Made by a program: the position numbers and the translations under genes
From: Lachnospiraceae bacterium
GTDB lineage: Bacteria; Bacillota; Clostridia; Lachnospirales; Lachnospiraceae
Direction: 5' to 3'
DNA length: 64,000 nucleotides
Assembly (NCBI GenBank): GCA_015057325.1
Contig: SVEQ01000008.1
Location: 65,461 to 129,460 of the forward strand
The notes under the pieces: model-generated
Told to the model about the DNA's origin: nothing
Seen by the model: only the letters and a program-made list of their open reading frames with translations
The model's database searches: none
In this document: positions 32,468 through 45,497 of the stretch, in pieces
How the letters are laid out: each line of letters starts with the position of its first letter
Numbering within the stretch: position 1 is the stretch's first letter

Positions 32468-33220
32468 TCAATAATCCCTCAATTTCTTTCCGGTTAGTGT
32501 AAGGAACACTTCCTCTAACGTAATTGACTCCGTATCATCAACCACCAATTTCTTAAGCTCCTCTGATGTTCCGCTTGCAATTATTTTTCCGTTATCCATT
32601 ATCGCGATACGGGTACAGATTGCTTCGACCTCTTCCATATAGTGACTGGTGTATATTACCGTCGCACCGTTTTTGTTGGACTCCTTAATCTTTTCAAGAA
32701 TAAAGTTTCTTGACTGCGGATCGATACCGACTGTCGGCTCATCAAAGATTAAAAGCTCGGGATGATGTCCTATCGCACATGCAATGTTAAGCCTTCTTTT
32801 CATTCCTCCCGAAAACTTCTTAGCATAATCATTTCTTCTTTCGGAAAGTCCTACGTACTCAAGAGACTCATCTATTCTCTCTTTTAATTCGTTACCCTTA
32901 ATTCCGTAAAGCGATGTGAAGAGTTCAACATTCTCCCATGCCTTAAGGCTTCCGTGAATTGCAAGATTTTGCGGAATGTATCCAAGCTTTGCGCTCAACT
33001 CTTTTTTGTTCTTACGAAAGTCTTTTCCCAAAAACTCAACCATTCCAAAATCAGGTTTGATGATATTACATATCATATTCATTGTTGTACTTTTGCCTGC
33101 TCCGTTTGGTCCGAGTAATCCGAATATCTCTCCCTTCTTAATCTCGATATTTAGATTATCAACAACCGTTTTCCCATCATATTTCTTTGTCAGATCGACT
33201 GTTTTTAATATTGTATCCAT
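32468..33220 (-). CDS. ABC exporter ATPase
   Basis: 250 residues. Walker A is GPNGAGKSTTMNMI near residue 38, signature KFSGGMKRRLNIACA, Walker B LLIFDEPTVGIDP, switch His in YTSHYMEEVEA. A typical single-domain ATPase for ABC-2 exporters. First gene of the five-gene operon ending in the response regulator. In similar operons the two-component system senses a drug or peptide and induces the exporter, which is the likely design here. Confidence 0.93.
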   Translation of the reverse strand: MDTILKTVDLTKKYDGKTVVDNLNIEIKKGEIFGLLGPNGAGKSTTMNMICNIIKPDFGMVEFLGKDFRKNKKELSAKLGYIPQNLAIHGSLKAWENVELFTSLYGIKGNELKERIDESLEYVGLSERRNDYAKKFSGGMKRRLNIACAIGHHPELLIFDEPTVGIDPQSRNFILEKIKESNKNGATVIYTSHYMEEVEAICTRIAIMDNGKIIASGTSEELKKLVVDDTESITLEEVFLTLTGKKLRDY

Positions 33221-33373: not shown

Positions 33374-35020
33374 TTATTGTATATTAGAAGCCCACTCTAT
33401 CGCATCATCGATATGTTTTCTGAAATTGTCTCGTCCGACCTTTTCAACAAATCCGCTCTTCTCCATGGTCTTCATCGGCTGCTCGTTAACATGCGAGAAT
33501 ACCATCGAAACTCCCGCTTCCTTACATCTGTCATACAGCTTTTCAAACTCGTGCATAGCTGACGCATCAAGAGCAGGAACACCACGCATACGGAAAATGA
33601 TAACCTTGGTAAAGTCCTTAAAATGAACCCCTGCAAGTCTGTCTGCATCTCCAAAGAACATCGGACCTGCGATCTCGTATATACGCACATGCTTAGGAAT
33701 CTCCTTAAGGTCAATTCCGTCCGGGTCTTCCTCAGGGTCGTAATATTTCCAACCCGATATAACCGACTCGTCGCTCATTCGTTTCATAAAGAGCACGCAA
33801 GCCATTATCATACCAACCTCGATAGCAACAACGAGGTCAAATACAACTGTCAGAATAAATGTTATAACAAGTACTACTATATCACTCTTTGGTGATGTCT
33901 TACACAAATGCACAAAGGTTCTCCACTGACACATGTTATATGCAACCATGAAAAGAATAGCTGCAATTGTCGGCATCGGAATAAGTGCTGCATATGGCAT
34001 CAAAATAACAAGAACCAAAATAAGAACAAGGGAATGAACAATTCCGGCAACCGGAGTTCTTCCTCCGTTTTTGATATTCGCCGCTGTTCTTGCAATTGCA
34101 CCTGTTGCAGGAATACCACCAAAAAGTGCAGAACCCACATTACCTACACCCTGTGCGATAAGCTCCATATTTGAACGGTGATGAGAATTAATCATACCGT
34201 CTGCAACAACGCACGAAAGAAGTGATTCTATCGCTGCAAGAATTGCAATGGTAACTGCATCAGAAGCAACATTTCTAATCATCGAAAATGACATATCCGG
34301 CATTGTAAAGCTTGGAAGCTTATTACTTATCGTATACAAATCTCCGATTGTATTAACGTTCATATTAAGTGCCTTAACCATTATGATTCCGACAATTACC
34401 GCGATAAGCGAACCCGGAATCTTTTCTGAAATGTAAGGCCACACGATTAGTATTGCAAGACAAACTACTCCGACAATAAGTGCCTGCGCATTAAAGGTCG
34501 TTATGTTTGCCACTATAGCCTTAACCTTGTCCATCGTCTCTATTGTTACCGTACCCTTAGGATATGTAAGTCCAAGGAAATCTTTGATCTGGCCTACAAG
34601 AATTGTTACCGCAATACCTGCAGTAAATCCTGTGGTTATTGTATATGGTATGAACTTAATAAGTGAACCAAGTCTTAACAGACCCATTATTATAAGCAAT
34701 ATTCCGGCAAGCACCGTTGCAAGTGCAAGTCCGCCCATTCCGTTTTTGGCAACTATTCCCGCTACAATCGTAGCAAATGCTGCCGTAGGGCCTGCAATCT
34801 GAACTCGGCTTCCGCCAAGAAATGAGATTAAAAATCCGGCAATTATTGCTGTGTAAATACCCTGTTCGGGACCAACTCCCGACGCAAGGGCTAACGCAAT
34901 AGAGAGTGGTAGTGCTATAATAGCAACTATCACTCCCGAAACAACATCAGTTACAAACTTCTTTCCATCGTAACTCTTCATTACGCTGAAAAGCATTGGC
35001 TTTAACTTATCCTTCTTCAT
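33374..35020 (-). CDS. SulP-family anion transporter with STAS domain
   Basis: 548 residues. About 12-14 membrane segments (residues 25-430) including VSGVIVAIIALPLSIALALASGVGPEQGIYTAIIAGF and SRVQIAGPTAAF, the SulP signatures, then a cytoplasmic STAS domain (about 440-545) with the conserved LDASAM loop. SulP proteins move sulfate, bicarbonate or dicarboxylates. It overlaps the end of the upstream membrane-protein gene by 14 bp, so it is translated from the same message as an efflux-type adaptor, an unusual neighbour. The ion carried cannot be told. Confidence 0.92.
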   Translation of the reverse strand: MKKDKLKPMLFSVMKSYDGKKFVTDVVSGVIVAIIALPLSIALALASGVGPEQGIYTAIIAGFLISFLGGSRVQIAGPTAAFATIVAGIVAKNGMGGLALATVLAGILLIIMGLLRLGSLIKFIPYTITTGFTAGIAVTILVGQIKDFLGLTYPKGTVTIETMDKVKAIVANITTFNAQALIVGVVCLAILIVWPYISEKIPGSLIAVIVGIIMVKALNMNVNTIGDLYTISNKLPSFTMPDMSFSMIRNVASDAVTIAILAAIESLLSCVVADGMINSHHRSNMELIAQGVGNVGSALFGGIPATGAIARTAANIKNGGRTPVAGIVHSLVLILVLVILMPYAALIPMPTIAAILFMVAYNMCQWRTFVHLCKTSPKSDIVVLVITFILTVVFDLVVAIEVGMIMACVLFMKRMSDESVISGWKYYDPEEDPDGIDLKEIPKHVRIYEIAGPMFFGDADRLAGVHFKDFTKVIIFRMRGVPALDASAMHEFEKLYDRCKEAGVSMVFSHVNEQPMKTMEKSGFVEKVGRDNFRKHIDDAIEWASNIQ

Positions 35021-36281
35021 TTTCTGTGTACTCCGTCTCTATATCATCTATTTCGGTAACCGCTATCATTACCTCGTCCTGTACGTCAGGCTCATCGTCC
35101 TCATTTTCTTCTGTGTCATCAGAAGTATCATCGGATTTGTCATCCTCTTCGGCAGCATTTTTTGCCTCGTATGCCTTCCATGCACGTCTGTCAATTTCAT
35201 CCTCAATCTCTTTCTTAATAAGGGCTCTTATTGACCAAGTCCTTGAATGCCATAAGTTATAGCAAAGAAGAATAAGACTGATTATCGGACATACAAGCAG
35301 AAGTCCTCTAAAGATTAATATCACTCTCTGTTCATCATCCTGAACTCTTGCGACATTCTCCCAATAAGGATAACCTACATCAGAAGTTCTCATGCCTCGA
35401 TACTTCCACATCTTCATTCCTGTTATGAGTTCCATCGTTTGATAGCGCTTCGTATTTTCTATTATATCAACGTTGTCAAATGATAGTGGATTTTTTTTCT
35501 TTCCAAGCGTTTCTTCCTCTTCATCGGTAAAGCCATAAGCGGTCTTTAAAGAGTTATATGCGTAATTACTTATAGGGTTTGGATATACCATTTCATAACA
35601 TGTTATTACCAAAGATTCACTGTGTTTTTTCAACTCGTCAAACGACATATATATTCTATTGGTGTCACCGTAAGCCATCTGCAAAGTTTTGTCATCATCA
35701 ATTGCGACAACACCGCAGATAAAATATACATTATTATCAATCCAAATCTGCATTCCGACAATGTCAGTAGAACCAAACATTGCCCATGCAAAATTCTCAT
35801 CTACAACTATATTGTCATGATTGAGATCACTCTCTGATATATAACAACCCGAAAGCAATTTCATCGGATGAAACTGGAAGAAATCACCACCAACACCCGT
35901 CGCTTTAACAGACAATGTGTTAGTATCCTTGCGAACATCGATGTTGGTTTCTCCGCAATATGCATCAATCCACACGCGTCCTCCGCTCTTTGACTCGGAA
36001 TAAGAATCCTTTGCCAAGGTTGAGGCAAGCGAACTTCTTACATTACGGATTTCCTCTTCGCCCTCATTTCTTCCCGATGAAATAAATGCACTAACCTGCG
36101 CGTAAGGCACTCCTTTTTTCCTAAGTTCCTTGTTCTCCCAGCGAGCCGCCTCCTGTTGTGAATAAAGAACATCCGCCTTATTGTGTGCAACCGTTGTCAA
36201 CACGCAAAATGCCACAAGCAGTAACACATTCACAATTATGATAATCCTATGCTGTTTTATATAATCTTTTACTTTAGACAT
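35007..36281 (-). CDS. MacB-type periplasmic-core membrane protein lacking an ATPase
   Basis: 424 residues. One helix at about 12-32 (IIIIVNVLLLVAFCVLTTVAH), a large outer domain (about 35-325) with features of the MacB periplasmic core (YAQVSAFIS, LLSGCYISESDLNHDNIVVDENFAWAMFGSTDIVGMQIWI, YFICGVVAI), one helix at about 330-352, and a very acidic cytoplasmic tail. A MacB permease would have four helices and an ATPase domain or partner; here the last helices and the ATPase are missing. It lies 18 bp after an efflux adaptor gene. It may be a partner subunit or a sensor-like derivative. I do not know its function. Confidence 0.6.
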   Translation of the reverse strand: MSKVKDYIKQHRIIIIVNVLLLVAFCVLTTVAHNKADVLYSQQEAARWENKELRKKGVPYAQVSAFISSGRNEGEEEIRNVRSSLASTLAKDSYSESKSGGRVWIDAYCGETNIDVRKDTNTLSVKATGVGGDFFQFHPMKLLSGCYISESDLNHDNIVVDENFAWAMFGSTDIVGMQIWIDNNVYFICGVVAIDDDKTLQMAYGDTNRIYMSFDELKKHSESLVITCYEMVYPNPISNYAYNSLKTAYGFTDEEEETLGKKKNPLSFDNVDIIENTKRYQTMELITGMKMWKYRGMRTSDVGYPYWENVARVQDDEQRVILIFRGLLLVCPIISLILLCYNLWHSRTWSIRALIKKEIEDEIDRRAWKAYEAKNAAEEDDKSDDTSDDTEENEDDEPDVQDEVMIAVTEIDDIETEYTENEEG

Positions 36282-36299: not shown

Positions 36300-37937
36300 T
36301 TACTCAACAAGTCTTACCTGCATACCATTCTCAAGTCTCTTTGAAGAATTGGTAATGACATTATCATATTCATATACACCACCGGTAACACCTGAAGATG
36401 TATCATCCGATGCCTGTACTTCAACATCAGCTCGTTTTACTGTGTAACGGTTTCCAAGAGGTGTTCCCTTAACCTTAAGAACGAGCACAAACTTGCCCTT
36501 TGAATCCTCTTTGATTGCATTGTTAGGAACAACCGCATCATAACGGTTTTTCTTCTCGCCAACGGAAAGCGCAAGTGTCTCTCCTATATTGACATCACCC
36601 TTAACCTCAAATGTTACTATCATTTTCTGGTTAGGATTTTCCGTATCAACTCTTATACTCTTGACCGTTGCAGATAAACTGTCATCCCATACATTTTCAA
36701 CGGTTGCCTCGTCACCAACCCTGATAAGCTTACTCTGTGCTTTGGTTACGGATACCTTTACAACATATCCGCTGTCGGCAAGCTGAAGCTTTGCAATAGG
36801 TGTATCTGCTGCAATTTCATCACCCGGCTTAACGGATATTTCCGATATTACTCCGTCTTCCTCTGCCTTAACTTCCTTGATGTCGTCTTTGCTCTTAAGC
36901 TCTTTAATCTTGTCTTTCTGCTCATCAATTTCCTTTAATGACTGCTCATTGTCCATTGCTTCTGATTTTGCATTTAACGAATCTTCTTCTTTTCTTTTAT
37001 CAAGGGCTCTGACAAGTGACTCTAATGTTTTTCTCTTTTCTTTCACTGCATCCTTTGCAGCCGCAAGTGTAGATTTCTCAGAGAGTTCTGCAACTTTAGC
37101 TGTCTGGGTTTCTTTTGCCTTTGTTAACGTATCCATAGATGCTGTTGCAGTTGCAAGATCTGTCTTAATCTGCTTGCTGGACTTTAACGCCTCGAGAAGT
37201 TTCTTTTCCTTATCTATTTCTGCCTGCTTATCTTCTATACTTCTTGTAATTTCCAACGTACTCTCACCTGCGTCTTGTGCAATTGCAAGGTCTTCCTTAA
37301 GACGCTTCATTGCCTTTTCATCTTCTGCAAGCTGAGTCTGCATAGCATCGTACTCACCCATTTCTTTGTAAGCATCTGCTTTTGCCTGAAGGTCATCAAT
37401 TCTTGCCTGCAAAGTATCAATTTCTTTAGTAGTCTTATCTAATTCTTTCTTTGCCTGCTTAAGTGCTTTATCATTTTTTGATGCCTGTTCCTGCTCCTCT
37501 ATTGCCTTTTTAAGGTCTGCCTTTGCATCCTTTATTCCGATATTATCCTCTGTGTAATCGGGTGCCATTTTAAGAAGTGATTTTGCATAGGCAAGCTCTT
37601 TTGACTCAAGATCCTTCTCTGCCTCGTCAAGTTCAGAGTTTTCTCCGTCTTCAAATGTAAAGAGAACCTGTCCCTTCTTTACTTCGTCTCCGGATTCCAC
37701 CTTAACTTCTTTAACTACTCTCTTACCGCTTACCGTTACCTCTATATCCGTATTTGTCTCTACAGTACCCTGTCCGCGCACCTTGTTAGAAACCGTACCC
37801 ATAGTTACCGGCTCTGTCGCAACCTCCGGCAGAGAATAATTCATAATGGTATTGGAAAAAAATGTTAACAGCAACAATACTACAACAAAGACTGTTGCCA
37901 CCTTTTTAATTAATTTTTTTCTTTTTGAATCTTCCAT
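36300..37937 (-). CDS. HlyD/MacA-type efflux adaptor with long coiled coil
   Basis: 545 residues. An N-terminal anchor helix (about 12-32), a split biotinyl-lipoyl domain (VSGKRVVKEVKVESGDEVKKGQVLFTFEDG; then EVKAEEDGVISEISVKPGDEIAADTPIAKL), between them about 250 residues of alternating Lys/Glu/Ala coiled coil, far longer than in most Gram-positive adaptors, and a C-terminal beta-barrel part. Such adaptors link an inner-membrane exporter to outer parts. It starts 48 bp after the sugar permease gene and precedes the MacB-core gene. No complete exporter ATPase is in the cluster. Confidence 0.85.
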   Translation of the reverse strand: MEDSKRKKLIKKVATVFVVVLLLLTFFSNTIMNYSLPEVATEPVTMGTVSNKVRGQGTVETNTDIEVTVSGKRVVKEVKVESGDEVKKGQVLFTFEDGENSELDEAEKDLESKELAYAKSLLKMAPDYTEDNIGIKDAKADLKKAIEEQEQASKNDKALKQAKKELDKTTKEIDTLQARIDDLQAKADAYKEMGEYDAMQTQLAEDEKAMKRLKEDLAIAQDAGESTLEITRSIEDKQAEIDKEKKLLEALKSSKQIKTDLATATASMDTLTKAKETQTAKVAELSEKSTLAAAKDAVKEKRKTLESLVRALDKRKEEDSLNAKSEAMDNEQSLKEIDEQKDKIKELKSKDDIKEVKAEEDGVISEISVKPGDEIAADTPIAKLQLADSGYVVKVSVTKAQSKLIRVGDEATVENVWDDSLSATVKSIRVDTENPNQKMIVTFEVKGDVNIGETLALSVGEKKNRYDAVVPNNAIKEDSKGKFVLVLKVKGTPLGNRYTVKRADVEVQASDDTSSGVTGGVYEYDNVITNSSKRLENGMQVRLVE

Positions 37938-37985: not shown

Positions 37986-39065
37986 TTATCCTTTAACACT
38001 TCCGGAATATGATATTCCTTCTACAAGATACTCCTCACCGTAAAGGAATATCAATATGGTAGGTACCATGTATATTGTTGCGACCGCAAAAGCAAGTCCA
38101 ACCTCTCCCGTATTAATCTTTGACAAGAATACGGAAAGTGGATGTTTGTCTGCATCCGACAACATGATAAGCGGTTGCTCAACCATGTTCCAATAATCTA
38201 TAAATACAAGGATTGCAACCGATGCAATCGGACCCTTACAAAGAGGGATACAAACCTTGGTAAATATCTGCCATTCATTAGCGCCGTCTAGCTGAGCGGC
38301 CTCAATAAGTGATGTCGGTATTCTTCTCATAAACTTGGTTAATAAGTACACACTAAATGGTGCAAAAATACCGGGAAGAATTATCGACCATCTCGTATCT
38401 AATATATGCAACCAATCCGCCACAATGTAGTTTGGAACGAGTGTTACCTGGAACGGCATAAGCATAACCGCGACGTATGCAAAGAACAGCCATTCCTTTC
38501 GTTTTGTTCTAAACCTCATAAAACTGTAGGATGCTCCAAGCGCAACCAGTATCTGGAATATCATAATCGGAATAACAAGTATTACCGAGTTCCAGAACTT
38601 CAAGAGATAATCGGGACTTTTCAAAAGTACGGTTGAATACTGATTAAAATCCACCATGTCAGGAATGAACTTAAGGTTTACCTTCTCCGGCACATAATCG
38701 GTGTCGCGTTCGCCCCATTCCTTCTGCTTGTATTTATTGAATATAACACCGTAATTGGTAGTTATTTCAGCTGATGACATGAAAGAATTAGCCATGGTTA
38801 AAATTGTAGGAAGAAGAAATGATATTGCAAATACCGCCGCTATAAAGGTTAAGAGTATTCTTTTTACAAGATGTCTCTTCTTGGCGTTTCTAACTCTCCA
38901 CTCCTTGAACCTGTCAACCTTACCGTCCTTTTCTATACTTTCGGTTTCCACATTCACATTGTCATCATTTTCTGTATTCTCTATATTATCAACTTCCAAA
39001 ACTTTTGCTTCTTCGTTGTTGATTTCATTATTATAATCTTGTTCAAAATCGTGTTCCTTCATCAT
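37986..39065 (-). CDS. Sugar ABC importer permease (MalG/CUT1-type)
   Basis: 359 residues. An acidic N-terminal extension of about 60 residues precedes six membrane segments. The EAA loop is SLIEAAQLDGANEWQIFTKVCIPLCKGPI near residue 270. The start used is the ATG at 39065, overlapping the stop of the upstream permease (ATGATGA); frame further upstream is inside that gene. With its partner it forms the channel for an oligosaccharide. The acidic extension is longer than usual for the family. Confidence 0.9.
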   Translation of the reverse strand: MMKEHDFEQDYNNEINNEEAKVLEVDNIENTENDDNVNVETESIEKDGKVDRFKEWRVRNAKKRHLVKRILLTFIAAVFAISFLLPTILTMANSFMSSAEITTNYGVIFNKYKQKEWGERDTDYVPEKVNLKFIPDMVDFNQYSTVLLKSPDYLLKFWNSVILVIPIMIFQILVALGASYSFMRFRTKRKEWLFFAYVAVMLMPFQVTLVPNYIVADWLHILDTRWSIILPGIFAPFSVYLLTKFMRRIPTSLIEAAQLDGANEWQIFTKVCIPLCKGPIASVAILVFIDYWNMVEQPLIMLSDADKHPLSVFLSKINTGEVGLAFAVATIYMVPTILIFLYGEEYLVEGISYSGSVKG

Positions 39066-39973
39066 CCTTCCACATCCTTTCCGTAGCGATCCTCTGCAAA
39101 GAACAGGCATCCGATAACAATACACATAACAACACCCATGATTATCGCCGCTGCTGAAAGCTTCTGATAATCTAAGGATTTAAATGTATTATTCATAAAA
39201 TGCTGTAGCATGTATAGTGAATCGTAAGGATAATCTCCGGTAAGAAGATAAACCTCTCGAAAGACCTTAAACGAATTGATAAGTGAAAGAATAGCTACAA
39301 ACAAAATTGTTGATGAAAGATATCGAAGTTTGATGTACCAAAACTTCTGAAGCTCGGATGCGCTTTCAAGTGTTGCCACCTCCAAAACATCACGTGGGAT
39401 AGCATTTAGCGCCGACATAAAAAGTATCATGTTGTAACCGAGATTTTTCCACAAAAACAAAATTACAATCACTATTTGACTGTAACTTGATTTGAACCAG
39501 TCAATAGAGTTTCCTCCAAGACCTTTGACAAACTCGTTGATTGCCCCGTTGTAATCGAAAAGCACCTGCCAAATAAGAACGATTGATGCCACCGGCACCA
39601 TCATGGGGCTTAAGAAAAATGTACGGAACTGACTCTTCATAGGAATGTTTTCCTCAAGAATCAATGCCATAACCAAAGATAATATAACCGCAAGCGGCAC
39701 AGCAACCAGTGAAAAGGTTGCTGTGTTTTTTGCCGCCTGCAAAAATGAGGAGTTTTGTATTATTCTGATAAAATTATCTAATCCTACAAACTTGTGACTA
39801 ATCGGATTATCTACAACTGAGTAGTATATAACTACCATGAACGGTAACAGGAAAAATACGAGTACACCAATCAGACTCAGCAGCATATATAACACTGAAT
39901 TCTTCTTGTCTTTTTTGCTCATTACATGCTTCTTATATTCAATTCCATCTTCCGTCACGAACTGCTTTTTCAT
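39062..39973 (-). CDS. Sugar ABC importer permease (MalF/CUT1-type)
   Basis: 303 residues, six membrane segments from about residue 28. The EAA loop is EVATLESASELQKFWYIKLRYLSSTI near residue 210. It lies 25 bp after the binding-protein gene and overlaps the next permease. No ATPase gene is in the cluster; CUT1 systems of this bacterial group commonly borrow a shared MsmK-type ATPase coded elsewhere. The beta-glucosidase upstream suggests a beta-glucoside or cello-oligosaccharide substrate. Confidence 0.9.
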   Translation of the reverse strand: MKKQFVTEDGIEYKKHVMSKKDKKNSVLYMLLSLIGVLVFFLLPFMVVIYYSVVDNPISHKFVGLDNFIRIIQNSSFLQAAKNTATFSLVAVPLAVILSLVMALILEENIPMKSQFRTFFLSPMMVPVASIVLIWQVLFDYNGAINEFVKGLGGNSIDWFKSSYSQIVIVILFLWKNLGYNMILFMSALNAIPRDVLEVATLESASELQKFWYIKLRYLSSTILFVAILSLINSFKVFREVYLLTGDYPYDSLYMLQHFMNNTFKSLDYQKLSAAAIIMGVVMCIVIGCLFFAEDRYGKDVEG

Positions 39974-39998: not shown

Positions 39999-42491
39999 TT
40001 ATCGGTTCTCATTAACATATGTGGTTAATCTGTTCTGAATAATATCTGCTGTCTCATCAAGACTCTTCTGACCACTGAAGTAGTTCTTTGCTTCTTCGTT
40101 AATGATCTCCATTATTGCATCATTGCTTTCTGTAACCTTAGTTGTATTGTTGATAAGGTCACGATACATCTGCTCCTCCTCTTTTGAAAGAGGTCCAATC
40201 TTAATCTCAAGGTCTTCCCAACCCCATGAAGACTCATTAGGCTCTACCTCAACACCGTATTCATCAGTATATTTCTCTGTTGCGGTCTTAGTCTTCATGT
40301 AGCATTCAAACGCATCCTTGTTAGTAGGATTGTTCCAGATATGTCCACCTGTTGCCTGATAATCTTTTGTCATCAATGTTTTGATGAACTCCCATGCTCC
40401 ATCTTTATAATTTGACTTTGAATAGATACCAAGTCGTGAGTCAAATGAGAAGTATGAACCATTCTTGTCCTCACATGGATAACCTATAAGAGAGATATCG
40501 GAATTATACATCTTTGAATAAGTCTGAATATAATCTGTATCCATCCAGCCTGCTGTAAGAAGTACCTTTCCGGACTTGATAAGTGAAGGCTCACTTGGCA
40601 TATCCTCGCTGTAATCCATCTCTTCATTTGTTCCGCGGTTTGCAATCTCAAGTATTGACTTGAAATCATCACTGCTAAATCTACATTCTCCTGTTGTCCA
40701 GTCAATATAATCATTTAAGTTAGAGTAAAGGAATGATGACAATATATCAACCTTGTTCTCACTGTAGAACGGTCTTACATCATCGCCCTTTTCTTCAAGA
40801 AGAGCTTTGAGCTCATCAAATGTCCAGCCTGTCTTGTCTCCGACATCCTTCTTAGAGGCAATAACTGTATTAATTGAAAAACTTGGTGCTACATAGTATA
40901 ACTTACCGTCAATTTCCATTGCCTTCTCAACTGAAGGTATGATGTCATCCTTGCTTACCTCCTCGTCCTTATCATAGTAAGGAGTCAAATCCTCAAGGAT
41001 TCCCTTTGCAACATACTGTCCAACCGGCATATAGCTTACGTCCATAATATCAGCAACGTTACCTGCAATAATATCTGCATTCATTTTTGATACAGGATCT
41101 TCTTCATCATTATAATCCTTAAATGTTATACGATACTTATCACTTTCCTTGTTAAACTTAATCGCTGCACTTCTTATTGTGTCATCAACGCTCCACAAAG
41201 AAGCAAATACTATAGTTTCCTTATCCTTAACCTGAGAAGGATCAACCTTTGTATACTTTGTAAGAATAGAACCTGTCTCTTCCCATGACTGACCGATAAA
41301 TGTTTCCTCACCCATAGGTACAATTCCGTATGTTCTGTTGCTGTCTATCTCTGAAGCAAGGTAATCAAGAACCTTGGTTCCCTTCTTATCACTAATTGAG
41401 TATCCATATATTCCCGATTCATCTTTGTAGAAGAAATCATACTTGCCGTATCCATCCATAACAGCATCTGAACTTGAGAAATAGTTCATTCCGTCAAGTT
41501 TGAACTTTTCACCGAACTTCTTGGCGTCTAAGTCAGCTACCTGTACGATTGCACCTTCTTCACCACTTGATGCACAAATGATTTGGCCGTCTTTTGTTTT
41601 TGCAGCTGCCTCAATATAATTGTTGTCCGACTTTAATTCTCCGACCTTCTTAAGATCCTTATCCAAGACAATTGCGCTGTCATTCGTTATTACTACAAGA
41701 TTTCCTTTATCATCTGCTAATGCTTTGGCAATGTATGTTTCATTACTAAGTCCAAGCTCTTTTGTTATATCAATATGATCTGTAACATTAAATGAATCAT
41801 CTAATGATGCTATATAACATGTCTGTCCTTCTTCTTCCGAGCCCCATCTGCTCGTAAGAAGAGATAATTTTCCGTCTTTACCGGCAATAATGTAGCTGAT
41901 ATATTCTCCTGCATCAAACGCCGGCTCTCCAAGTTCCTTAATATCTGTTCCGTCAAGGTTCATTGAATATAATCTGTTTGTAACCTCGTATTCATCTTCG
42001 TTCCCTGTATCTTCGGCAACAGCTTTCTCTGTTGTCTCATCTTCTGATGTCTCTTCGGTCTTATCTTCAGAAGTTTCTTCTGTTGTTTCTTCTTCGGTTG
42101 CTTCCTCGGTTGCTTCCTCGGTTGCTTCTTCGGTAGTAGCATCCTCTTCGGTTACTTCTTCAGTAGTGGCACCTTCTTCAGAAGTTTCCTCTGTTGTAAC
42201 ATCCTCTTTCGATCCTTCAATATCTTCACCGTCAGTTCCGTCGAATGCTTCTCCCGGCCATTCCGATGTAAGGAAATAGAATTTATCTCCCGAAATAACA
42301 AAACTAGATAAATCACCTTTAACTCCGGCTAAATCGATGTCTTCACCGGTATATACCATATTTTTCACATTTTCTTTGGTTTTGGAATCCTTTCCGTCAT
42401 TACCACCTTTTCCGCCACAAGCAGTCATGGACAATGCCATTACAACACTAAGTCCAAAAGCAAGCGACCTTTTGAAAGTTGTTTTTCTCAT
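39999..42491 (-). CDS. Lipoprotein fusing a probable beta-propeller to a family 1 sugar-binding protein
   Basis: 830 residues. Signal peptide with lipobox-like LSMTACGG near residue 20. Then a beta-rich region (about 35-420) with repeats such as GDKFYFLTSEW, NRLYSMNLDGTDIKEL and GKLSLLTSRWGSE, suggesting a propeller, interrupted by about 70 residues of Glu/Thr-rich repeats (TTEEATEEATEE type). The C-terminal 400 residues are an extracellular family 1 solute-binding domain (DTIRSAAIKFNKESDKYRITFKDYN; TPYYDKDEEVSKDDIIPSV; GIYSKSNYKDGAWEFIKTLM). It feeds the two CUT1 permeases. Start chosen at the ATG after AAGGAGG. The fusion about doubles the usual length. Confidence 0.85.
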   Translation of the reverse strand: MRKTTFKRSLAFGLSVVMALSMTACGGKGGNDGKDSKTKENVKNMVYTGEDIDLAGVKGDLSSFVISGDKFYFLTSEWPGEAFDGTDGEDIEGSKEDVTTEETSEEGATTEEVTEEDATTEEATEEATEEATEEETTEETSEDKTEETSEDETTEKAVAEDTGNEDEYEVTNRLYSMNLDGTDIKELGEPAFDAGEYISYIIAGKDGKLSLLTSRWGSEEEGQTCYIASLDDSFNVTDHIDITKELGLSNETYIAKALADDKGNLVVITNDSAIVLDKDLKKVGELKSDNNYIEAAAKTKDGQIICASSGEEGAIVQVADLDAKKFGEKFKLDGMNYFSSSDAVMDGYGKYDFFYKDESGIYGYSISDKKGTKVLDYLASEIDSNRTYGIVPMGEETFIGQSWEETGSILTKYTKVDPSQVKDKETIVFASLWSVDDTIRSAAIKFNKESDKYRITFKDYNDEEDPVSKMNADIIAGNVADIMDVSYMPVGQYVAKGILEDLTPYYDKDEEVSKDDIIPSVEKAMEIDGKLYYVAPSFSINTVIASKKDVGDKTGWTFDELKALLEEKGDDVRPFYSENKVDILSSFLYSNLNDYIDWTTGECRFSSDDFKSILEIANRGTNEEMDYSEDMPSEPSLIKSGKVLLTAGWMDTDYIQTYSKMYNSDISLIGYPCEDKNGSYFSFDSRLGIYSKSNYKDGAWEFIKTLMTKDYQATGGHIWNNPTNKDAFECYMKTKTATEKYTDEYGVEVEPNESSWGWEDLEIKIGPLSKEEEQMYRDLINNTTKVTESNDAIMEIINEEAKNYFSGQKSLDETADIIQNRLTTYVNENR
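41998..42200 (-). repeat. Tandem repeats coding the Glu/Thr-rich stretch
   Basis: Short repeats (gcttcctcggtt/gcttcttcggta on the plus strand) code Ala-Thr-Glu-Glu-type units within the binding lipoprotein. The copies near 42100-42140 are almost identical, a sign of recent slippage. Confidence 0.75.
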
Positions 42492-42527: not shown

Positions 42528-42619
42528 CAAGTTTTTAACTTGTTTCTTAGCATGCTGTTACTTCACATATTTCTCACTGATTTCATTCGCAGTATATCGC
42601 TTAAAAATCCAAAAATCAA
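42528..42619 (-). promoter_or_regulatory. Promoter of the sugar-importer operon with a palindrome in the leader
   Basis: On the minus strand TTGATT (42614-42619) and TATACT (42591-42596) are exactly 17 bp apart, a strong sigma-A promoter. The leader of about 95 bases holds CAAGTT-TTT-AACTTG (42528-42542), a perfect inverted repeat that could be an operator or small hairpin before the RBS. Confidence 0.7.
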
Positions 42620-42725: not shown

Positions 42726-42760
42726 AAAAAAGGGAATGCTGCAAAACATACAACATTCCC
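42726..42760 (-). terminator. Intrinsic terminator after the beta-glucosidase gene
   Basis: GGGAATGCTG (42732-42741) and CAACATTCCC (42751-42760) form a 10-bp stem with one wobble, followed on the minus strand by six T. Confidence 0.85.
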
Positions 42761-42767
42761 TCATAAT

Positions 42768-44117
42768 TTATAAATTATCTCCGTTAGATTTGATTACATC
42801 ACGATACCAGTATCCCGAATCTTTGATTGTTCTTTCGAGCGTTCTGTAATCAACATACACCATACCAAAACGCTGTGTATATCCTTCTGCCCACTCGTAA
42901 TTATCAAACAATGACCAGTGAAGATATCCCGCAAGAGGTATTCCATCCTCTGCAGCACGCTTAAACTGCAAAAGATAACGATGTGTATAATCAATTCGAT
43001 AAGCGTCATGAACCTTGCCGTCAAGACATACCCAGTCATGCTCAGCCATTCCGTTCTCTGTAATCATTATCGGTTTGCCATATCTCTCATATAAGAACTT
43101 AGATGACCAGTACACAACCTCAGGTGCAACAGGCCAGCCAAGGTGATTCTCAGGACTTCCCTGATAACGGTTCTCAGGATAACCACCATCCTCAGGATGT
43201 AAGCCTTGAGAATAGTAAATGTTCATTCCGTAATAATCAAGCGGCTCTGTAACCAACGCCCACTCTTCCTTTGTAAATTCAGGAACTCTGTCTCCGTAAT
43301 CCTTGTATAACTCATCCGGATACTTGCCAAGGAAAATAGGATCCGACCAATAGCTTAATGAGAAACAAAATCTCTCGCCGGCAGTTCCAAACGTTTTTGT
43401 TCTTGCTTCTTCAATCGCTTCCTTTGAATCATCCTTAGGAATAAACGAAGGTCCAATCGGAGTAAAGCCTATCATTGGTTTCTTCTTAGCATTATTCCTA
43501 ATATAGTTTGCAGCCTTACCATGCGAGAGCAGTATATTCTTACCCATTATAAGAAGATCATCGCTCTGTGCATGCTCAAATGGAGCATGAAAACCTCCAA
43601 GGTATCCGCAACCAAGTACACATTGAGGCTCATTTATTGTTGCCCAGTATGTTACTCTGTCAGAAAGTGCATCTACAACAACTTTGGTGTATTCCAAAAA
43701 CCATTCAGAACTGTCATCATTTTTCCAAGCACCTTTTCTGTGAAGTGCGTAAGGAAAATCCCAGTGGTACAAAGTAACGATTGGCTCTATACCTGCCGCA
43801 ATTAATTTGTCAACCAAGTCAGAATAAAACTTAACACCCTTCTCGTTAACCTTGCCGGTTCCCTCAGGAAGTATTCTCGTCCAACTTATAGAAAAACGAT
43901 ATGCCTTAAGTCCGATTTCTTTCATTATTGCAATGTCTTCGTCAACCTTGTGATAATGGTCAATTGAAACATTACCATTCTCATTGTATCTGGTGTTTCC
44001 CTTGAAACCGGAATAAACATCCCAAATACTTAATCCTCGTCCATCCTCATTGTAAGCGCCCTCAATCTGATATGCTGCTGTCGCCGCGCCCCAGATGAAA
44101 TCCTTCGAAAATGCCAT
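42768..44117 (-). CDS. bglA: GH1 beta-glucosidase
   Basis: 449 residues, the normal GH1 length. FIWGAATAAYQIEGA at the N-terminus, YWATINEPQC with acid/base Glu near residue 166, and PIMITENGMAE with nucleophile Glu near residue 352. No signal peptide, so it hydrolyses imported cellobiose, other beta-glucosides or 6-phospho forms in the cytoplasm. RBS GAGGAGG. It has its own promoter and terminator and lies just upstream of the sugar-importer operon, with a divergent MerR-type regulator in front. Confidence 0.95.
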   Translation of the reverse strand: MAFSKDFIWGAATAAYQIEGAYNEDGRGLSIWDVYSGFKGNTRYNENGNVSIDHYHKVDEDIAIMKEIGLKAYRFSISWTRILPEGTGKVNEKGVKFYSDLVDKLIAAGIEPIVTLYHWDFPYALHRKGAWKNDDSSEWFLEYTKVVVDALSDRVTYWATINEPQCVLGCGYLGGFHAPFEHAQSDDLLIMGKNILLSHGKAANYIRNNAKKKPMIGFTPIGPSFIPKDDSKEAIEEARTKTFGTAGERFCFSLSYWSDPIFLGKYPDELYKDYGDRVPEFTKEEWALVTEPLDYYGMNIYYSQGLHPEDGGYPENRYQGSPENHLGWPVAPEVVYWSSKFLYERYGKPIMITENGMAEHDWVCLDGKVHDAYRIDYTHRYLLQFKRAAEDGIPLAGYLHWSLFDNYEWAEGYTQRFGMVYVDYRTLERTIKDSGYWYRDVIKSNGDNL

Positions 44118-44174
44118 AAATATTCCTCCTCACACACTTATTATTCATACATCCCCCAACATATGTCTGTTCCC

Positions 44175-44204
44175 ATTATATACTATCTGTCCTTGATTAA
44201 GCAA
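44175..44204 (-). promoter_or_regulatory. Promoter of bglA
   Basis: On the minus strand TTGCTT (44199-44204) and TATAAT (44175-44180) are 18 bp apart, 58 bp from the bglA start. Its -35 is only 6 bp from the -35 of the divergent merR-type promoter. Confidence 0.7.
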
Positions 44205-44206
44205 CG

Positions 44207-44239
44207 ATTATTCACAATAATATTGGGGTATGCTATAAT
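44207..44239 (+). promoter_or_regulatory. Promoter and palindrome of the MerR-methyltransferase gene
   Basis: TTCACA (44211-44216) and an extended -10, TGCTATAAT (TATAAT 44234-44239), are 17 bp apart. A perfect palindrome ATTATT-CAC-AATAAT (44207-44221) covers the -35 and abuts the bglA -35, so one bound protein could affect both genes. Confidence 0.7.
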
Positions 44240-44273
44240 ATCGTTAACTTTTCATTTAAGGATGGGACGGCCC

Positions 44274-45497
44274 ATGAAATCTAACGGATATTACACCTCC
44301 GGACAGTTCGCAAAAATGGCTCACATCACCATTCGAACAGTCCGCTATTACGACAAAGTTAATATATTAAAGCCTTCCTATGTGAGCGAGTCAGGCATAA
44401 GGTATTACACCGATGAGGACTTTGCGAAATTGCAGCAGATACTGTTGCTTAAGTACTTGGGGTTTTCTTTGGACGATATAAGAAACATGACAATTGGTGA
44501 TTCTGATTACGGGCGTCTTAAGAACTCTCTTAACCTTCAGCTTAAGCTCGTTAAGGACCGTATTGAGCAAATGCAGCACGTAGCCTCAGCCATTGAAGAA
44601 ACAACGGAAGCCATTGATACCGAGAAGGAAATCGACTGGACGCAGATGCTTAACCTCATCCACCTTACAAACATGGAAAACACGCTTAAAACCCAGTATG
44701 AAAACTCAAGCAATATCTCGGCAAGAATCAATCTTCATACCTTGTATTCAACTAACAAACTTGGCTGGTTTCCATGGGTTTACGAGCAGTGTCCGATTAA
44801 GGCAGGTGCTAAGATTCTTGAAATCGGTTGCGGAAGCGGTGCTTTGTGGAAGGAAAACTTTGACAAGCTTCCAAACGACATCAATATTTTTTTAAATGAT
44901 ATTTCTGAGGGAATGCTTCGAGATACGAGAAGAGAACTGACAAAGTATTCAGGCAGCGATAATGATGAGGAAGTCCTTCATGCGGACAATAACATTACCT
45001 TTGATTTTCATGCTTTTGATTGTTCCAATATTCCTTATGACGATGAAAGCTTTGATATAGTAATTGCTAACCATGTACTATTCTACTGTGACGATATTGA
45101 CGAAGTATTGTCAGAGGTTAGAAGAGTTCTAAAGGGCGGGGGAACATTTATATGCAGTACATATGGTGCCGCTCACATGAAGGAAATAACCGAACTGGTT
45201 AATAAGTTTAACCGTTCCATAATTTTATCCGCAGATAAATTGTACGAACGTTTCGGTCTAGATAACGGCATGTCGTTACTTGCTCCTTACTTTTCAAAAA
45301 TAAAACGTAAAATATATGATGATGAATTGATTGTTGATGAAGCAGAACCGCTTATAGAATATATAATATCCTGTCACGGCAATCAGAATCAGTATCTTCT
45401 TGATCGTTACAAGGATTTCAGAAGTTTTGTAGAAAAGAAAACAAAAAAAGGGTTTCATATAACAAAATACGCAGGCATTTTCACCTGTACGAAATAA
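44274..45497 (+). CDS. MerR-type regulator fused to a class I SAM methyltransferase
   Basis: 407 residues. An N-terminal MerR HTH (YYTSGQFAKMAHITIRTVRYYDKVNILKPSYVSESGIRYYTDEDFAKLQQILLLKYLGFSL, residues 6-66) and a coiled coil to about residue 110, then a Rossmann methyltransferase (about 150-310) with AKILEIGCGSGALW (SAM loop), FLNDISEGML, FDIVIANHVLFYCDD and LKGGGTFICS. It may bind SAM as a signal, or methylate a small molecule it also senses. The start is placed after the promoter; longer frame to 44163 lies upstream of it. ATG at 44262 is an alternative. It is one of very few plus-strand genes here and divergent from bglA. Confidence 0.85.
   Translation: MKSNGYYTSGQFAKMAHITIRTVRYYDKVNILKPSYVSESGIRYYTDEDFAKLQQILLLKYLGFSLDDIRNMTIGDSDYGRLKNSLNLQLKLVKDRIEQMQHVASAIEETTEAIDTEKEIDWTQMLNLIHLTNMENTLKTQYENSSNISARINLHTLYSTNKLGWFPWVYEQCPIKAGAKILEIGCGSGALWKENFDKLPNDINIFLNDISEGMLRDTRRELTKYSGSDNDEEVLHADNNITFDFHAFDCSNIPYDDESFDIVIANHVLFYCDDIDEVLSEVRRVLKGGGTFICSTYGAAHMKEITELVNKFNRSIILSADKLYERFGLDNGMSLLAPYFSKIKRKIYDDELIVDEAEPLIEYIISCHGNQNQYLLDRYKDFRSFVEKKTKKGFHITKYAGIFTCTK

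Follow-up and report, generated by a model that had tools for sequence, protein, structure and literature searches.

A lipoprotein in which a solute-binding protein (SBP) domain follows a second, unlike domain raises the question of what such a protein does and with which partners it works. Its gene lies in the window, a stretch of 64,000 nucleotides of a Lachnospiraceae genome (assembly GCA_015057325.1, contig SVEQ01000008.1; Table 1). A sequence-only reading had seen here a sugar-binding lipoprotein fused to a propeller-like domain. The analysis shows that the lipoprotein is a member of a widespread, unnamed family, and the object of interest is a five- or six-gene machine around it.

Table 1. 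Features of the lipoprotein gene and its neighbours, in positions of the window
Feature	Position	Strand	Remark
Propeller-SBP lipoprotein gene	39999..42491	minus	ATG, 830 aa
Signal peptide and lipobox	42417..42491	minus	Cys25 = lipid-anchored residue
Six-bladed beta-propeller	41247..42353	minus	aa 47-415, predicted structure
Disordered acidic Glu/Thr arm	41982..42260	minus	aa 78-170, loop 1b-1c of blade 1
SBP_bac_1-fold binding domain	40002..41219	minus	aa 425-830
Promoter-like site TTGATT-17-TATACT	42591..42619	minus	5' of lipoprotein gene; consensus match only
MalF-like permease (perm1)	39062..39973	minus	variant EAA loop EVAxLESA...IKLRYL
MalG-like permease (perm2)	37986..39065	minus	canonical EAA...DG loop
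HlyD/MacA-like adaptor	36300..37937	minus	one N-terminal membrane helix
MacB periplasmic-core-domain protein	35007..36281	minus	two membrane helices, no FtsX or ATPase domain
Terminator-like hairpin	42730..42762	minus	14 pairs then T run, 3' of GH1 gene
GH1 beta-glucosidase-type gene	42768..44117	minus	upstream neighbour conserved in window clade

Architecture of the lipoprotein

A TTG at 42530 is also possible as the start of the gene, and the plus strand at 39999-42491 is stop-rich throughout. The lipobox residue Cys25 is invariant in 30 aligned relatives. Pfam placed SBP_bac_1 (PF01547) at amino acids (aa) 441-713 with 36.8 bits against a cut-off of 26, and zero Pfam families were above cut-off in the N-terminal half. 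An AlphaFold2 model of the full lipoprotein, built on an alignment of 100 rows, had a pLDDT of 86.5 and a pTM of 0.82. In this model aa 47-415 are all-beta, with a pLDDT mostly above 90 in the propeller, aa 86-164 are disordered (pLDDT about 30) and aa 425-830 have the SBP fold. Since a fold search with the full model was uninformative on the propeller, the N-domain was folded by itself (pLDDT 84.9). It has 24 modelled strands, which in our own assignment would make up six four-stranded blades, the last of which is closed by the first short strand. The top VIA match of the N-domain was an NHL six-bladed propeller (7nyq_B, Z 20.1, rmsd 3.3, 258 aligned), and six-bladed sialidases and virginiamycin B lyase were also among the matches with Z about 16. 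The N-domain shares its fold with NHL and six-bladed beta-propellers, but the identity is only about 7-14% in the rows listed and a common motif was not found.

Both models reject an N-terminal part that is disordered or a piece of the SBP fold. Pfam, AlphaFold2 and the fold search together support a propeller and a binding domain as two separate domains, encoded next to permeases. The sequence-only reading was therefore right to confine the binding domain to the C-terminal half and to place in front of it a propeller interrupted by an acidic repeat stretch, which is a disordered Glu/Thr loop inside blade 1. KFYFLTSEW and RLYSMNLDG, which it took as propeller repeats, are strands 1b and 1c of that same blade. 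Its further proposal, that the propeller holds a polymer and oligosaccharides are then passed to the permeases, is a possibility as yet unsupported. In the propeller fragment only G195, G263, D281, G308 and K385 are conserved at 90% or more, and conservation over the aligned relatives gave no conserved catalytic or binding signature. Among the N-terminal parts of 100 relatives, Pfam found Reg_prop in 23, SGL in 20 and SBBP in 11; that of the window protein matched none of these families.

The suggested survey of the fusion in the family found relatives in 36 of 299 sampled family genomes (E<=1e-20), which rejects a one-off fusion in the window genome. The propeller plus SBP architecture is the family norm and not a special fusion. 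The two domains are also found apart: an operon of the same kind contains an SBP without propeller (L157), and stand-alone propeller lipoproteins without the SBP half adjoin the operon in L162 (2495-3742, 416 aa) and L163 (16030-17187, 386 aa). Propeller lipoproteins described in a lipoproteome paper are unrelated to the present family.

The top fold match of the SBP part was CbpC of Clostridium thermocellum (7x0o, Z 27.1, rmsd 4.2, 380 aligned), and the fold matches are largely oligosaccharide binders. CbpC is also the best sequence match of the domain (E 3.6e-41 with profile A3, from which 5 of 104 family ORFs, those shorter than 700 aa, were dropped; L021 and ORFs below 600 aa were left out of alignment A1). 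According to passages of PMC9601137, the latest study, neither ITC nor NMR showed binding of any tested sugar by CbpC, a loop blocks its pocket, and mutation of transporter C left growth on glucose, cellobiose and Avicel normal. Binding of G3-G5 by CbpC was reported in an older study, as cited in a passage of PMC3492117. The cbpC operon is given in the text of PMC8303734 as Cthe_2125-2128, with permeases 2125 and 2126, one further gene (2127) and cbpC as 2128, and acrA, an adaptor-type name, is among the gene names of the clusters in the Fig. 1 legend of PMC9601137. Transporter C thus has the closest solved SBP to our lipoprotein and, in the text cited, two permeases in its operon, but the crystallised CbpC chain (438 residues) is too short for a propeller or an arm. 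Judged from the paper text, Cthe_2125-2128 may be an operon of the same kind without propeller.

Acidic arms on one face of the propeller

The Glu/Thr arm is a 93-residue loop that joins strands 1b and 1c, and its DNA consists of imperfect repeats of 12, 15, 24 and 30 bp. In 100 relatives, inserts of at least 30 residues occur at only three of the 23 inter-strand loops, namely 1b-1c (19), 1d-2a (10) and 2b-2c (8), and all 37 inserts of this length contain at least 25% Asp+Glu. The arms in this set have a median Asp+Glu fraction of 0.37 versus 0.18 for whole proteins, and a Lys+Arg fraction of 0.03. A second set of 51 non-redundant relatives has 22 inserts of at least 25 residues, 20 of them in these three loops, the loop placement in each set being taken from one reference model and one alignment. 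The remaining two look like alignment slips, and Asp+Glu is below 25% in two of the 20 (L171, 0.19; L050, 0.22). The b-c and d-a loops of a propeller share one face, so all arms would exit from one face, on neighbouring blades.

A quick tree of the SBP half (101 rows kept after rows below 650 aa or with fewer than 330 SBP residues were dropped) implies at least 17 changes of arm state among the 101 rows. Arms in loop 2b-2c were found in upstream and downstream paralogue groups alike. Long acidic arms have thus arisen time and again, and nearly all of them sit in three loops of blades 1-2. Slippage is able to lengthen such imperfect repeats, so the arms may have grown neutrally; the repeated choice of the same insertion site points to tolerance or use of that propeller face.

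Arms are found in 18 of 28 single-copy operon lipoproteins and in none of 13 orphan copies. Where a locus has two copies (n=26), one copy is armed in 18 loci, none in eight and both in none. A rule that strictly allots one armed lipoprotein to each operon was nevertheless rejected, as L163, which lies outside these 26 loci, has two armed copies. Position and ancestry account for much of the one-armed-copy pattern.

Operon partners and their distribution

The lipoprotein gene is followed by perm1, perm2, the HlyD-type adaptor and the MacB-like gene, separated by 25 bp, an overlap, 48 bp and 18 bp, respectively. The HlyD/MacB-like partners, absent from the sequence-only reading, define the operon. 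We did not find a description of an operon of these five or six genes in the open-access papers searched, and this absence weighs little. Both permeases contain BPD_transp_1; their best NCBIfam models are UgpA and GlcU, far below the equivalog cut-offs. The start of perm2 is likely the ATG at 39065, and its frame is open to 39125. The EAA-loop consensus, which has a Gly, served as reference for perm1, where 50 of 54 sequences have Ser at the Gly position, followed by IKLRYL. The loop of perm2 is canonical (52 sequences), and such a difference between the two permeases could possibly mean asymmetric coupling to the ATPase. In the adaptor HlyD_3 and Biotin_lipoyl_2 were above cut-off and MacA matched with E 0.0024. 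The MacB-like protein matched MacB_PCD only, with hydrophobic segments at 7-34 and 318-346 flanking the core domain, and its alignment has 31 invariant columns over 29 rows. Pfam and hydrophobicity revealed neither an FtsX domain nor the four-helix permease layout in it, and none of the five operon genes of the window encodes a MacB/YknY-type ATPase. Without FtsX domain and ATPase, the MacB-like protein is no MacB pump by itself, and a MacAB exporter was rejected for the same reason. A gene for a SulP-type permease (33374-35020) shares 14 bp with the end of the MacB-like gene; it was rejected as core member of the operon because it was matched only in the window and in L062.

In the family sample the MacB-like protein was found in 29 of 299 genomes, all of them among the 36 with the lipoprotein; the probability of this overlap is 5e-34 if genomes are independent, which related genomes are not. 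Seven of the 36 genomes have the lipoprotein without MacB-like protein (G010, G046, G065, G136, G147, G200 and G260). The order perm1-perm2-HlyD-MacB is intact in 27 of the 29 family genomes (the other two stop at contig ends), in 11 of 13 other-family genomes (two cut or masked), in 16 of 18 loci (17 genomes) of family f66 and in 2/2 of f45. Overall there are six exceptions: five are truncated or masked where a contig ends, and the sixth is without a MacB call. In these order counts (the sets of 29, 13 and f66), SBP labels come from separate models for each half. An SBP is absent beside the four genes in 3 of 29 family genomes, 6 of 13 other-family genomes and 4 of 18 f66 loci. In one of the six other-family cases (L152) a propeller ORF is truncated at the end of the contig, and propeller detection is weak in the distant proteins of other families and f66. 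An SBP is nearby in 12 of the 18 sampled f66 loci.

The class sample contained a MacB-like match in 19 of 291 genomes, 13 of these from other families. Matches in the phylum sample (13/299) included one strong match outside the own family (G898), and the weak ones outside it are probably ordinary MacB. At order level the protein was found in 10 of 196 genomes, with all matches listed belonging to the own family. In family f66 it is present in 101 of 115 genomes.

Another 74 named-genome loci were taken from the best 80 of 391 confirmed relatives, with SBP labels from full-length models that are blind to which half matches (this also holds for the counts of GH1 neighbours). The genes perm1-perm2-HlyD occur together in 51 of these loci, and in 47 with MacB too. 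The lipoprotein gene lies immediately 5' of this gene set in 48 loci, immediately 3' of MacB in 35 (L067 doubtful) and at both ends in 29 (L067 included). In the quick SBP-half tree most downstream copies cluster in a separate clade (97), away from the upstream copies. The same 74 loci together with the window contain 13 orphans, near-complete copies without permeases. Culturable carriers of the HlyD or MacB-like gene include Kineothrix alysoides (L120) and Lachnotalea glycerini (L091). A single-protein search of genome contigs gave nothing useful.

The other propeller-SBP lipoprotein of the window genome (767 aa, without a long arm) is an orphan (L058 8855-11155, locus L004, G000:C9), with a histidine kinase and an FtsX-type ABC permease encoded nearby. 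An orphan gene in L060 (7788-12120) is flanked by a response regulator gene and a histidine kinase gene, like a three-component sensor, and orphan or contig-edge genes in L059, L079 and L084 adjoin MacB- or FtsX-type ABC genes. The window genome also encodes a 651-aa protein that has a membrane helix and, at its C-terminus, an extracellular part resembling SBP_bac_1 (L007 331-2286, G000:C22), possibly a Ser/Thr protein kinase with a solute-binding sensor, the kinase part being our own reading. A lipoprotein with a transglutaminase-like domain is encoded 3' of the MacB-like gene in L154 (10432-11427), with look-alikes there in L181 and L183. In the window a MerR-type regulator fused to a methyltransferase domain is encoded on the plus strand at 44163-45497.

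A composite importer and its alternatives

We propose, with a probability of roughly 0.55, a composite ABC importer that has a MacA/MacB-like assembly outside the cell and uses the lipoprotein as its lipid-anchored binding subunit. The proposal is based on the observed domains, fold predictions, gene order, co-occurrence and, in three lineages, the type of ATPase. That perm1 and perm2 are powered as an importer is best supported by a gene for a MalK-type ATPase (ABC_tran + OB_MalK + TOBE_2) directly 3' of the MacB-like gene in L107 (an uncultured Oscillospiraceae) and in L214 and L215, which represent the six-gene unit of f45; in L215 the two genes overlap. Outside the operon the window genome encodes its single OB_MalK ATPase (370 aa), and this MalK/MsmX-type ATPase would drive perm1 and perm2. 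The ATPase at 32471-33220 was rejected as the engine, as it is without OB_MalK/TOBE and a gene for an ABC2 membrane protein lies two genes further along. By analogy to MacA on MacB, the adaptor may sit on the MacB-like core domain, and the two together could cover the permeases with an extracellular sleeve or scaffold. The propeller would dock the SBP onto this scaffold or the cell wall, the SBP domain would feed ligand to the permeases and the acidic arm might serve as a flexible spacer or electrostatic contact on one propeller face.

Co-occurrence, the conserved gene order, the MalK-type ATPase within the operon and GH1/GH94 neighbours argue for the composite importer, whereas the sugar-negative CbpC, the 7 of 36 genomes without MacB-like protein, the 13 orphans, the SBP-less loci and the GH1 terminator argue against it. 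GH1 is found upstream of the lipoprotein in the window clade with eight gene matches, and GH94 enzymes are encoded close to L153 and L155 and also close to the orphan L086. Because the terminator-like hairpin separates it from the lipoprotein gene, GH1 was rejected as operon member and is likely on its own transcript. The ligand would most likely be a beta-linked gluco-oligosaccharide or other glycan fragment.

Two other known systems resemble the operon in part. With MacAB/YknXYZ it has the HlyD/MacA-like adaptor and the MacB periplasmic core domain in common, but the FtsX domain and the MacB-type ATPase are missing, only two membrane helices are present, and the operon has MalF/MalG-like permeases instead, plus a MalK-type ATPase in three lineages. 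It is like CUT1 importers with a shared MsmX-type ATPase in its SBP_bac_1 domain, its MalF/MalG-like permeases and probably an ATPase encoded elsewhere, but differs by the propeller on the SBP, two extra envelope proteins and the variant EAA loop of perm1.

It could be an ordinary CUT1-type sugar importer, with the HlyD- and MacB-like proteins merely co-transcribed and working elsewhere. SBP, MalF and MalG homologues with a shared MsmX-type ATPase would suffice for uptake, and HlyD/MacB-type pairs act as separate pumps in Gram-positives according to a passage of PMC5985334. We nevertheless consider this unlikely, since the four genes stay together across several families and the MacB-like protein has neither the FtsX domain nor the ATPase. 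To a similar degree it seems improbable that the machine is non-nutritional and serves sensing, envelope maintenance or peptide extraction, with the SBP-propeller reading a surface ligand. The passages of PMC9601137 on CbpC, which bound no sugar and whose mutant had no growth phenotype, are consistent with this. So is the position of orphans beside FtsX/MacB systems or flanked by a response regulator and a histidine kinase, and the near universal presence of the MacB-like protein in f66 resembles a core function over a niche sugar. However, the importer-type MalK ATPase within the operon in three lineages, the match of the SBP fold mostly to oligosaccharide binders and the GH1 and GH94 neighbours speak against a non-nutritional role. 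An enzymatic propeller (lyase, lactonase or sialidase-like) which trims the ligand ahead of its capture by the SBP is very improbable, because the sialidase and virginiamycin B lyase matches and the matches of 20/100 relatives to SGL, a gluconolactonase-type family, are outweighed by the absence of a conserved His, Glu or other catalytic set and by best VIA matches that are NHL domains, which are not known to be enzymes.

The composite importer can be taken further. Little is understood of how bulky solutes get through the thick cell wall of Gram-positives to ABC importers. As a tentative and rather doubtful extension, the operon may encode a new Gram-positive importer with a MalFG-type permease, in which a MacA-like ring on a tethered MacB core forms a conduit through the wall, propeller-SBPs dock and arms control docking or wall passage. 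If so, parts of an export pump would have been turned to import. If true, an importer with a MacA/MacB-like extracellular assembly would break the usual division between import and export machines, and the C. thermocellum transporter of disputed role might be explained. Since the MacB-like protein is so common in f66 genomes, the machine could serve a core function, as yet unannotated, in many Clostridia.
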